A stretch of DNA of 64,000 nt. Origin: Pseudomonas avellanae BPIC 631 (GTDB lineage: Bacteria > Pseudomonadota > Gammaproteobacteria > Pseudomonadales > Pseudomonadaceae). The position numbers and the translations under genes are program-made. The DNA lies in assembly GCF_000444135.1 (NCBI RefSeq), contig NZ_ATDK01000229.1:1-64000 (forward strand). The letters run 5' to 3'. Below are positions 26,911 through 51,546 of the stretch, piece by piece. The notes under the pieces were generated by a model. The model searched no databases, had not been told where the DNA came from, and worked only from the letters and a program-made list of their open reading frames with translations. Position 1 is the stretch's first letter, and every line of letters begins with the position of its first letter.

Positions 26911-29016
26911 GTGAACCCGGTAATCAAAAAGTTTCAGTTCGGTCAATCGACCGTAACCCTCGAGACAGGCCGTATCGCCCGTCAAGCCTCTGGCGCAGTA
27001 TTGGTCACCGTTGACGACGACGTCAGCGTACTTGTGACTGTGGTCGGCGCCAAACAGGCTGATGCTGGTAAAGGCTTCTTCCCTCTGTCCGTGCACTATC
27101 AGGAAAAAACCTACGCTGCCGGCAAGATTCCTGGTGGTTTCTTCAAGCGTGAAGGCCGTCCTTCCGAGAAAGAAACCCTGACCTCGCGCCTGATCGACCG
27201 TCCGATCCGTCCGCTGTTTCCAGAAGGCTTCATGAACGAAGTGCAGGTTGTCTGCACCGTCGTTTCCACCAGCAAGAAGATCGATCCGGACATCGCTGCG
27301 ATGATCGGTACTTCGGCTGCTCTGGCCATCTCCGGTATCCCGTTTGACGGTCCGGTTGGCGCTGCGCGCGTTGCTTTCCATGAAAGCACCGGCTACCTGC
27401 TGAACCCGACTTACGAGCAACTGCAGGCTTCGAGCCTGGACATGGTCGTAGCCGGTACTTCCGAAGCCGTTCTGATGGTTGAATCGGAAGCCAAAGAGCT
27501 GACCGAAGACCAGATGCTGGGCGCTGTGCTGTTTGCCCACGACGAGTTCCAGGTGGTCATCAACGCCATCAAGGAACTGGCTGCCGAAGCCGCCAAGCCT
27601 ACATGGGATTGGCAGCCAAAGCCTGAAGCGACTGCACTGCTGGGCGCTATCCGTGCCGAGTTCGGCGACGCGATCTCGCAGGCTTACACCATCACCGTCA
27701 AAGCAGACCGCTATGCGCGTCTGGGCGAGCTGAAAGACCAGGTCGTTGCCAAGCTGGCTGTCGAAGAAGGCAGCCCGTCTGCCGGCGAAGTCAAAGCGGC
27801 TTTCGGTGAAATCGAATACCGCACCGTTCGCGAAAACATCGTCAACGGCAAGCCGCGTATCGATGGCCGTGACACTCGCACTGTCCGCCCGTTGAACATC
27901 GAAGTCGGCGTTCTGCCAAAGACTCACGGTTCGGCACTGTTCACCCGTGGCGAAACTCAGGCGCTGGTTGTTGCCACCCTGGGTACTGCACGCGACGCAC
28001 AGCTGCTCGACACCCTTGAAGGCGAGAAAAAAGACCCCTTCATGCTGCACTACAACTTCCCTCCGTTCTCGGTGGGCGAGTGTGGTCGTATGGGCGGCGC
28101 GGGTCGTCGCGAGATCGGTCACGGCCGTCTGGCACGCCGTAGCGTACAGGCCATGCTGCCGGGCGCTGATGTGTTCCCGTACACCATCCGTGTTGTGTCG
28201 GAAATCACCGAGTCCAACGGTTCCAGCTCCATGGCTTCGGTCTGCGGCGCTTCCCTGGCACTGATGGACGCTGGTGTTCCGATGAAGGCACCGGTTGCCG
28301 GTATCGCCATGGGTCTGGTCAAGGAAGGCGAGAAGTTCGCCATTCTGACCGACATCCTGGGTGACGAAGATCACTTGGGCGACATGGACTTCAAAGTAGC
28401 CGGTACCTCCAAGGGTGTTACCGCGCTGCAGATGGACATCAAGATCAAAGGCATCACCGAAGAAATCATGGAGATCGCTCTGGGCCAAGCCCTGGAAGCT
28501 CGCCTGAACATTCTCGGTCAGATGAACCATATCATCGGTCAGTCGCGTAACGAGTTGTCGGCCAACGCTCCGACCATGATCGCGATGAAGATCGACACCG
28601 ACAAGATCCGTGACGTGATCGGCAAGGGTGGCGCAACCATCCGTGCAATCTGCGAAGAGACCAAGGCTTCGATCGACATCGAAGACGACGGCTCGATCAA
28701 GATCTTCGGCGAGTCCAAGGAAGCGGCTGAAGCAGCACGTCAGCGCGTTCTGGGTATCACCGCAGAAGCAGAGATCGGCAAGATCTACCTGGGCAAGGTT
28801 GAGCGCATCGTCGATTTCGGCGCATTCGTCAACATCCTGCCTGGCAAGGATGGCCTGGTACACATCTCCATGTTGAGCGACGCTCGCGTAGAGAAAGTGA
28901 CCGACATCCTGAAAGAAGGTGAAGAAGTCGAAGTACTGGTACTGGACGTGGACAACCGCGGCCGTATCAAGCTGTCGATCAAAGACGTCGCCGCAGCGAA
29001 AGCGTCGGGCGTCTGA
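26911..29016 (+). CDS. pnp: Polyribonucleotide nucleotidyltransferase (PNPase)
   Basis: 701 residues. Phosphorolytic 3'-5' exoribonuclease and degradosome partner. Two RNase PH-like domains (about 1-215 and 310-545) are separated by a helical region; the second has the family motif [23 protein letters not shown] in parts. A KH domain ([19 protein letters not shown], about 555-615) and an S1 domain ([18 protein letters not shown], to about 690) end the protein. Starts at GTG 26911, preceded by GTAGGAAAC. Last gene of the metY-pnp cluster, with a strong terminator. Confidence 0.99.
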
Positions 29017-29035: not shown

Positions 29036-29063
29036 AAAAAGGACTCTTCGGAGTCCTTTTTTT
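29036..29063 (+). terminator. Terminator after pnp
   Basis: AAAAAGGACTC (29036-29046), TTCG loop, GAGTCC, then seven T. A textbook intrinsic terminator, 20 bases after the pnp stop. Confidence 0.92.
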
Positions 29064-29181
29064 ATGAGTGCAATTAGGGGCTTACGTTTGCACCGCGCGA
29101 AATGCCTGATGTGAACATGCATCTTGCAAGCCCGGGAAGTGGTGAACGGGCAATCTGCACGATTTCGTCAAACAACGAAAA

Positions 29182-29194
29182 ATTCAAGTTATTG
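29182..29194 (+). promoter_or_regulatory. Candidate IHF site upstream of the sigma-54 promoter
   Basis: ATTCAAGTTATTG matches WATCAANNNNTTR at all but one fixed position, in an AT-rich stretch about 45 bases upstream of the -24 element. This is the usual place for IHF bending between an upstream activator and sigma-54 polymerase. Confidence 0.5.
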
Positions 29195-29224
29195 ATTTTA
29201 AAGTGTTTTTTGCCTATCTCATAT

Positions 29225-29241
29225 TTGGCACACCGCTTGCG
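29225..29241 (+). promoter_or_regulatory. Sigma-54 (RpoN) promoter of the BON-domain gene
   Basis: TTGGCAC (29225-29231) and TTGC (29237-29240) give GG and GC dinucleotides exactly 10 bases apart, matching the -24/-12 consensus YTGGCACG-N4-TTGCW at nearly all positions. Transcription would begin near 29252, about 50 bases before the ATG of the BON gene. Confidence 0.85.
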
Positions 29242-29305
29242 ACATAACCGATAACCCTGCAGCCACACAGCTGGCGCAGATTTTGAGAAAAACAGGAGTT
29301 ATCGT

Positions 29306-29659
29306 ATGAAGAAGTTCGCTATCGCTGCTGCTACCGCTACTGCCCTGACGCTGACCATGGCAAACGCTGCATTCGCTCAGACTTCGGCCCAAGCTCCGAT
29401 GGTTCTGGCAGCCAACACCACGACTCAAGAAGTCAAAGAAGATACCTCTGACACCTGGATCACCACCAAAGTCAAAGCTGACCTGCTGACTGAAAAAGGC
29501 ATCCCTGGTTCGGACATCAAGGTTGAAACCAACAAAGGCGTGGTTTCCCTGTCCTCCATGGTAAAAGTCACTGAAGCACAGAAAACCACAGCTGTAGCCA
29601 TCACCAAGAAAATCAAAGGCGTCAAAGATGTATCGGCTGCTGGCCTGAAAGCCGAGTAA
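29306..29659 (+). CDS. Secreted BON-domain protein (OsmY-like)
   Basis: 117 residues. A clear Sec signal peptide (KK, then an Ala-rich core) with predicted cleavage after AFA at residue 24. One BON domain covers about residues 48-115 (DTWITTKVKADLLTEKGI, then VVSLSSMVKVTEAQKTTAV and a GVKDV turn). BON domains occur in periplasmic proteins tied to osmotic or envelope stress, such as OsmY, and are thought to contact membranes; the exact role is unknown. Ribosome site CAGGAGT precedes the ATG. It stands alone between two terminators, behind a near-consensus sigma-54 promoter, so it is likely a single-gene RpoN-dependent unit. Confidence 0.9.
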   Translation: MKKFAIAAATATALTLTMANAAFAQTSAQAPMVLAANTTTQEVKEDTSDTWITTKVKADLLTEKGIPGSDIKVETNKGVVSLSSMVKVTEAQKTTAVAITKKIKGVKDVSAAGLKAE

Positions 29660-29713: not shown

Positions 29714-29770
29714 GGCTACAAGGATGTAGCCATTACAGGCCCCGGCTGAAGAGTTGGGGCCTGTTCTATT
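29714..29770 (+). terminator. Double hairpin terminator after the BON gene
   Basis: First hairpin GGCTACA (29714-29720)/TGTAGCC (29725-29731). Second, stronger, ACAGGCCCC (29735-29743)/GGGGCCTGT (29756-29764), followed by TCTATT. Confidence 0.75.
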
Positions 29771-50700: not shown

Positions 50701-51546
50701 GCTGACGTTGACCCGCGCAAGATTCCGGCGCTGGATATCAAGATCTCGCAACTGTTTCAGGGCGACCAGTTATTGGGTGCCTGGGCGTTGAAGATTCGGC
50801 CGACGCCGACCGGGATGCGCATGTCTGACCTGAGCCTGGGGCTCAAAGGCATCCTGCTGGAAGGCGACGGTGCCTGGGAAGGTGCGCCGGGAACCAGCAG
50901 CAGCTGGTTCAAAGGGCGTATGGCCGGCAAGAATCTAGAGGACGTGCTCAAAGCCTGGAACTTCGCCCCGACCGTCACCAGCGAAAGCTTTGAAATGAAC
51001 GTCGACGGGCGCTGGCCCGGCTCACCTGCGTGGGTAGGGCTAAAGCGCTACTCAGGCAGCCTGGATGCCACGTTGAACAGAGGTCAGTTTGTCGAAGTGG
51101 AGGGCGGTGCCCAGGCATTGCGCGTATTCGGGCTGCTGAACTTCAATTCCATTGGTCGCCGTTTGCGTCTGGACTTCTCCGACCTGCTCGGTAAAGGCCT
51201 CAGCTATGACCGGGTCAAAGGGCTGCTGGTGGCCAGCGACGGCGTTTACGTGACGCGCAGCCCGATCACGCTGACCGGGCCGTCCAGCAATCTGGAACTC
51301 AACGGTACGCTGGACATGGTTCGCGACCGCGTCGATGCCAAGCTGTTGGTGACCTTGCCGGTGACCAACAACCTGCCTATCGCCGCGTTGATTGTCGGCG
51401 CGCCGGCCATTGGCGGCGCGTTGTTTCTGGTCGACAAGCTGCTGGGCGACCGGGTTGCCCGCTTCGCCAGCGTGCAGTACAAGGTCGAAGGCCCGTGGAA
51501 AGAGCCGAAGATCACCTTCGACAAGCCATTTGAAAAGCCCCAGTAG
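47731..51546 (+). CDS. yhdP: AsmA-like envelope protein YhdP
   Basis: 1271 residues. Very large protein of the TIGR02099/DUF3971 family with an AsmA-like C-terminal region. One N-terminal membrane helix (about 13-33), then a long beta-rich periplasmic part. E. coli YhdP is one of the bridge-like proteins thought to carry phospholipids to the outer membrane. Typical spots: YVSLGRQLTPLV near the N-terminus, GSLEGSWSRFAPVL, and a C-terminal VEGPWKEPKITFDKP. Located right after rng, its usual place, with a 181-base gap; ATG at 47731 has GGAGGG upstream. Confidence 0.93.
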   Translation: MGRLPRAVATLTRWGLSLCALILVLAALYVSLGRQLTPLVAEYRVDVETRASSALGIPLSIGSLEGSWSRFAPVLLAHDVMVGEGANALRLDRVRVVPDLWASLLARQVRIAHLEVDGLQFTIKQDQEGGWAVQGLPVRNDTPFDPGQLLNQMQMVSHLSLLDSQVTVQPLDAAPLTLTYVNLSLTTGSYHQRLDARLTLPDGQPFALNVRSRIQASQWKEGEADAYASLPQSDWAKWLPKSLTREWTLSRLQAGGDLWMSWGKGTVQSATARLNAPQIKGVYADRKPSTIDNLALNAWFARTVTGFDLSLDSLAMNLGSDRWESRLQLTQTAATPDREELWHVQADRLDLTPLTPLVDSLAPLPEKAMAVVDGLKVTGGLRNVLLDYRPQATGDKRLGFAANLDKVGFNAYRGAPAAGNVSGAINGDLGQGELRLATDDFMLHLDPIFAKPWRYQKANARLTWKLDDQAFTLIAPYIKVLGDEGKIAADFLIRIHLSHDQEDYMDLRVGMVDGDGRYTSKYLPTALSPELDHWLRTAVVSGAVKQGFFQYQGSLKKNSPDTAHVISLFFDVSNATLAFQPGWPSLTGVDGKVYVENSGVRVNASKGQLFDTRVSNVLVNIPHVPSGQDSHLLVDGNFSGSLVDGLKILQQAPIGTGSTFAGWQGEGPLEGKLKLDIPLAKGVEPKVVVDFSTDNARLKLADPVLELTRLKGDFRFDSNSGLSGKGIRAQAFDRPVTAEIAAEGKPGANVTRITANGQITVKKLTDWLSVTQPVPASGDLPYQLQLTLDSKDSPLLINSTLKGVAIDLPAPFGKAADQERPSEFRMTLQGPERRLGVAYDNLANFAFAAPGGKFADGRGELYLGRGGAVVPDAKGLRIRGELSELDIAPWQALAERYSSNDPGGSAKQRLNSVDLQIGKLTAIGTTLNDVRVQLQRSAAAWALSLDSALAKGTATLPDAKAAPIGINMAYVRLPATDPNATVVENAPDPLADVDPRKIPALDIKISQLFQGDQLLGAWALKIRPTPTGMRMSDLSLGLKGILLEGDGAWEGAPGTSSSWFKGRMAGKNLEDVLKAWNFAPTVTSESFEMNVDGRWPGSPAWVGLKRYSGSLDATLNRGQFVEVEGGAQALRVFGLLNFNSIGRRLRLDFSDLLGKGLSYDRVKGLLVASDGVYVTRSPITLTGPSSNLELNGTLDMVRDRVDAKLLVTLPVTNNLPIAALIVGAPAIGGALFLVDKLLGDRVARFASVQYKVEGPWKEPKITFDKPFEKPQ

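Follow-up and report, generated by a model that had tools for sequence, protein, structure and literature searches.

The window, by which we mean the whole stretch of 64,000 nucleotides that was analyzed, carries a gene for a BON-domain protein downstream of a gene that we take, from its sequence, to be pnp (Table 1). The match of the product to Pfam BON (PF04972) spanned residues 48 to 110 and passed the cutoff of 27 bits, with an E value of 1.3e-13 and a score of 51.5 bits. All retained relatives of this protein were from Pseudomonas, the nearest being 99% identical, and the window DNA was close to that of the P. syringae group. The BON gene was situated no more than 800 bp behind a pnp-type C terminus in 55 of 80 related loci. 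Its earlier description as isolated between terminators was a fair one, given the two flanking hairpins. In some genomes (G136, G215, G223, G231, G272, G286 and G295), the BON frame was ~225 amino acids long and gave two BON-type matches, as though a second BON domain had been added to the gene and made it longer. The leader (29253-29305) was well conserved and contained CTGC...GCAG arms together with the invariant CAGGAGT. A conserved leader hairpin was considered, for which RNAalifold returned four pairs, one of them changed on both sides, and a covariation term of 0; no claim is made for this structure. We assume that PA4739 is the P. aeruginosa orthologue of the BON gene. In one report (PMC10654054), PA4739 was up by ~4 to 6 log2 under three beta-lactams in PAO1 and down in two epidemic-type strains, and the beta-lactam response fits a regulated envelope-stress role.

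Table 1. Features at the BON locus (window coordinates)
Feature	Position	Strand	Basis or remarks
pnp, polynucleotide phosphorylase (presumed), upstream neighbor	26911..29016	+	ORF list
Hairpin and T run behind pnp, terminator	29036..29063	+	By eye; absent from the terminator scan's list
Putative enhancer box 1, TGCATCTTGCA	29118..29128		Center at -129 from predicted start
Putative enhancer box 2, GGCAATCTGCA	29149..29159		Center at -98; one mismatch to TGCA-N3-TGCA
IHF-like site, CAAGTTATTGATT	29185..29197	-	Center at -61; reverse complement fits WATCAANNNNTTR
Sigma-54 -24/-12 element, TTGGCAC-ACCGC-TTGC	29225..29240	+	Sequence and orthologue conservation; TTGGCAC 29225-29231, ACCGC 29232-29236, TTGC 29237-29240, read directly
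Predicted transcription start	29252	+	Inferred, 12 nt beyond the GC
Ribosome-binding site AGGAG, within invariant CAGGAGT	29294..29298	+	Conserved leader
BON gene; product of 117 aa with a single BON domain, N terminus resembling a signal peptide (by eye)	29306..29659	+	ORF list and Pfam
Terminator-like hairpin after the BON gene	29735..29764	+	Listed by the terminator scan

The sequence-only reading had placed a near-consensus sigma-54 element with exact GG-N10-GC spacing upstream of this gene, and direct reading confirmed it, with GG at 29227-29228, GC at 29239-29240 and ten bases separating the two. The distance of about 50 bases from the ATG required correction, as the distance from the end of the element to the start codon is 65 nt; the predicted transcription start would give a leader of 54 nt. 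A search of the window for TGGCAC-N5-TTGC with up to one mismatch yielded 6 matches versus 8.4 expected by chance, and the site before the BON gene was the sole exact match among them. As these matches were at the chance level, the motif alone proves little, and it is conservation that decides. Conservation was assessed in 81 BON promoters, comprising that of the window and those of the 80 best of 334 relatives, all of them close kin within Pseudomonas. The pattern TGGCAY-N6-[CGT]GC was present in the 300 bp before the start in 81/81 upstream regions versus 0.87/81 in dinucleotide shuffles. The element was positioned 78 to 86 nt before the ATG in every promoter, with GG and GC invariant; TGGCAC-N5-TTGC was exact in 40 of the 81, and the rest differed mostly at the first one or two bases of the TTGC. 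A fortuitous, nonfunctional motif, as the window counts might permit, is extremely improbable, being contradicted by the retention of the element in all 81 orthologues at a nearly fixed distance from the boxes described below. On the strength of this conservation, the BON promoter is almost certainly of the sigma-54 type, and it belongs to a known kind, the NtrC-type sigma-54 promoters. The proposal of an RpoN-type promoter before a BON-domain protein was supported by both the conserved element and the Pfam match. A sigma-54 promoter requires an activator.

Upstream of the element, two palindromic boxes of the form TGCA-N3-TGCA were located 31 bp apart, both within the enhancer range of ~80 to 150 bp upstream that is expected of sigma-54 promoters. 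A strict box pair, defined as two boxes with at most one mismatch each and 30 to 32 bp apart, was detected in 81/81 BON upstream regions versus 0.04 in shuffles. The boxes were separated by 31 bp in 75 and by 32 bp in 6 of the 81 orthologues, and the distance from box 2 to the TGGCAC was 77 bp in 68 orthologues; in the other 13 it was 76 or 78 bp. The IHF-like site was assigned using the IHF consensus, a strict match to which was present in 52/81 orthologues. Boxes, IHF-like site and sigma-54 element were the conserved parts of the upstream region among the 81 orthologues, and much of the intervening stretch was variable. In the usual layout of a sigma-54 promoter, boxes are about three helical turns apart and a bend lies between the boxes and the promoter; an IHF site or bend in this position is common but not universal. 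Arrays of a 7-bp repeat, TGCAAGC or its complement, were present on contigs C60, C234, C258 and C334 of the P. avellanae genome and mimic enhancer boxes in pattern searches, accounting for 22 of the 23 rows of one box search of this genome. An evolution study of P. protegens CHA0 (PMC8262913) describes a point mutation, -104G>A, upstream of an osmY/BON gene. In P. protegens FD6 (L040), the base at -104 from the BON ATG is a G inside the IHF-like stretch, and the osmY/BON gene of CHA0 may be this gene or another.

Proteins of the BON/OsmY type have been connected with osmotic and sigma-S control, and the gene could be read mainly from a sigma-S, sigma-22 (AlgU) or sigma-70 promoter, with sigma-54 contributing little. 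A BON protein of Azotobacter is discussed among AlgU-controlled proteins in a proteome study (PMC10651043). However, simple patterns detected no sigma-70-like site on the plus strand between 29017 and 29320, no AlgU-type GAACTT-N15-18-TCNNA motif was found anywhere in the window, and the conserved parts of the upstream region were those named above. Any dependence on AlgU could, moreover, run through AlgB, the response regulator considered below, since a review includes KinB/AlgB in the AlgT (AlgU) network (PMC10418997). We consider it unlikely that one of these other sigma factors predominates. The RpoN side of the contrast drawn earlier between this promoter and sigma-S or osmotic control was supported by the sequence, but the contrast itself is probably smaller than had been supposed, given the place of KinB/AlgB in that network.

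A three-part pattern consisting of the box end, the IHF-like stretch and the sigma-54 element was used to search 198 genomes of the family. As an earlier, loose pattern was found in every one of the 149 genomes of the genus and also picked up chance hits in coding DNA, only the stricter pattern was counted. Among the matches listed there were 61 of this kind, from 41/198 genomes, versus 1 in a reversed control, and a few of the 61 looked like coding DNA. In 40 fetched loci (L144-L183), a second box was present 30 to 32 bp away for 33 of 39 pattern matches. The genes behind the fetched matches included those for BON, DUF3509, hemerythrin and triple-BON proteins, for DUF1328 followed by DUF3185, and for small secreted-looking peptides. 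The short secreted-looking peptides behind this promoter type in L168, L169 and L179 ended in W/F-x-F (WVF, WTF and FTF).

A search of the P. avellanae genome for box pairs with 31-bp spacing and up to two mismatches returned six sites, versus none in the reversed control. The pairs were upstream of the BON gene, of a DUF3509 gene with the full layout, of algB and of a 97-aa ORF, and at two positions without a TGGCA element. The promoter of the 97-aa ORF, near algB, had an IHF-like site and TGGCATGCAGTCTGC. This promoter (L270, contig C55 near 50834-50875), the third in the genome with the full layout, is ~1 kb from algB, the ORF has a probable membrane segment, and ORFs resembling it were present beside algB in L213 and L216. 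The suggestion that the BON gene is the sole target of its activator was not supported, as further genes, both here and in other genera, were preceded by the same anatomy. The gene is instead very probably one member of a small regulon, assigned to AlgB and sigma-54 from the comparisons given below. This regulon would comprise mostly small proteins of envelope or stress type (BON, DUF3509 and small membrane peptides) and in other genera might also include triple-BON, DUF1328/DUF3185, DUF2383 and hemerythrin proteins.

The AlgB-type protein of the P. avellanae genome has 448 amino acids (L105), with the GAFTGA motif visible in its sequence, and is followed by a presumed KinB-like protein. Upstream regions of algB were compared for this genome and for 40 others that were hand-chosen, not random, to spread over genera from the 156 genomes with AlgB. 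A strict box pair was found within 350 bp upstream of algB in 31/41 genomes versus 0.03 in shuffles, again with 31-bp spacing, and was missing in 10/41; under looser limits, the pair was present in 37/41 genomes versus 0.41 in shuffles. The sequence [TG]GCAAGTTGCA was detected upstream of algB in 38/41 genomes, 32 of which had it no more than 80 nt from the algB start. In three genomes, DUF1328 had a full pattern promoter that was divergent from algB. In P. avellanae, the product of the gene divergent from algB (L105:2637-3476, contig C55) is 279 amino acids long and gave three BON matches; no TGGCAY element was found before this gene, and a related protein in another genome (L180) had a full box/IHF/sigma-54 promoter. 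Another protein might in principle use the boxes next to algB.

Eighteen distinct activator ORFs were identified in the P. avellanae genome from 22 Pfam activator matches, after exclusion of the three weakest (E values of 2.9e-6 to 8.4e-5) and recognition of L107 and L109 as the same ORF. Many of these activators are presumably widespread in the genus. The presence of AlgB alone does not single it out, and the boxes could be bound by another enhancer-binding protein, for example NtrC, CbrB, PilR or a DctD-like protein. However, algB was the only one of the 18 with a box pair in its upstream region (0/17 for the others), the binding sites of NtrC and CbrB differ in shape from TGCA-N3-TGCA, and loss of the boxes accompanied loss of AlgB in each of the three cases described below. 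Binding by one of these other proteins is quite improbable. A PAS-type activator (L104), considered for its DNA-reading helix, was rejected, as it was present (E ≤ 1e-110) in only 9/198 genomes, 8 of which were among the 41 pattern genomes.

AlgB (E ≤ 1e-110) was detected in 156/198 genomes and the BON gene (E ≤ 1e-17) in 132/198. Both were present in 129 genomes, AlgB only in 27, BON only in 3 and neither in 39 (Fisher p of 5e-20, uncorrected for phylogeny, in a comparison confined to AlgB and BON). AlgB was present in 40 of the 41 genomes with the three-part pattern; in G340, the pattern was present and no AlgB was detected. In the BON-only genomes (G165, G178 and G201), neither the boxes nor the sigma-54 element was found before the BON gene. 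As the BON matches of G165 and G201 were weak and not behind pnp, G178 carries the most weight: its BON gene is still behind pnp, and a congener with AlgB (G163), whose BON gene is also behind pnp, keeps both boxes and element. Three AlgB-less genomes from the genus of P. avellanae (G239, G307 and G338) were without a BON gene, in a check that drew on 32 genomes hand-chosen, not randomly, from the 198.

Of 28 BON loci from genomes with AlgB, spread over many genera, 26 showed the pair when the limits were relaxed, and the TGGCAY element was present in 23; one locus of this set (L211) probably encodes another BON protein. In G334 and G337, the element was present with only one clear box, and in G185, a genome that is 78% complete, AlgB and BON were present and neither boxes nor element was detected before the BON gene. 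One genus with AlgB (g17; loci L207, L250, L259, L260 and L262) had neither boxes nor element in the BON upstream regions of G164, G189 and G200, and the boxes were absent from the algB upstream regions of G164 and G189 as well. The AlgB proteins of G164 and G189 are divergent (77 to 78% identity), and a changed AlgB specificity could account for the box loss in this genus. The algB neighborhood, the control with 18 activators and the AlgB-less genomes together point to AlgB as the activator, which the sequence-only reading had left without a name, and we regard activation of the BON sigma-54 promoter by AlgB as highly likely.

AlgB, an NtrC-family response regulator encoded with kinB and the partner of KinB, would in its active form, phosphorylated or otherwise, occupy the boxes, with dimers bound to two TGCA-N3-TGCA sites that are three helical turns apart, at roughly -100 and -130 relative to the start. 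Bending by IHF at the IHF-like site would bring an AlgB hexamer to the sigma-54 polymerase, and the AAA+ ring of AlgB would then open the sigma-54 complex at its element with ATP. Transcription would begin near the predicted start, and the protein would be exported and act in the envelope. Envelope stress could act as the signal, via KinB and the control of algB by AlgU, or else light, via BphP.

The regulator AlgB is known and the proposed regulon is new. A conserved box, its spacing and named targets would show the use that AlgB makes of sigma-54, and the box-bearing promoters offer targets with which KinB-AlgB and BphP-AlgB signaling could be followed directly by reporters, as well as a way into the regulation of BON and DUF3509 proteins. 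A wider interpretation, which we put forward tentatively and with considerable doubt, is of an AlgB sigma-54 regulon of envelope-protective proteins that is separate from a sigma-22-type action on algD, with BON and its partners perhaps switched by light and KinB. If this were true, envelope protection would be partly light controlled on leaves, given the two phytochrome-type genes of the P. avellanae genome.

Several known systems can be compared with this promoter. The BON protein resembles OsmY of Escherichia coli in its BON domain and envelope location and gave a weak match of 51 bits to the OsmY model. It differs in scoring below the OsmY cutoff of 174 bits (NCBIfam), in having a single BON domain in 117 amino acids and in its sigma-54 rather than sigma-S type promoter.

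The qrr genes of Vibrio, under LuxO/SypG, have a sigma-54 promoter preceded by a pair of TTGCAWWWTGCAA enhancer sites (PMC10162802), and these share the shape TGCA-N3-TGCA. AlgB scored 346.8 bits with the LuxO model (NCBIfam), for which the cutoff is 800, and is not LuxO; the model had no match in 185 genomes of the class or in 14 control genomes. We assume that the DNA-reading helices of AlgB and LuxO are alike. The targets also differ, being a small RNA for qrr and a protein gene in the window.

The algD promoter, a known target of AlgB in P. aeruginosa, is read by sigma-22. AlgB has the build of a sigma-54 activator, but transcription of the target for which it is best known depends on a different sigma factor. 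Inspection by eye of the region upstream of algD in the P. avellanae genome (L254) detected no box pair and one single near-box, TGCCGCTTGCA, and so the box fails to explain this target. Three AlgB sites on the algD promoter are described in a review (PMC10418997), and another paper (PMC11957545) refers to an AlgB ChIP-seq study of P. syringae 1448A. In the literature searched, outside which the key AlgB studies lie, neither an AlgB box consensus with sigma-54 targets nor AlgB control of a BON gene was found, and part of this may be in print. AlgB carries the GAFTGA motif needed for sigma-54, as stated in PMC6932827, and is the partner of the phytochrome BphP in P. aeruginosa according to the same source and PMC10936436; in this species it is reported to gain phosphate from BphP and to lose it through KinB. 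Known work on AlgB concerns alginate and biofilm, whereas the BON promoter presented here is of the sigma-54 type with a pair of boxes.
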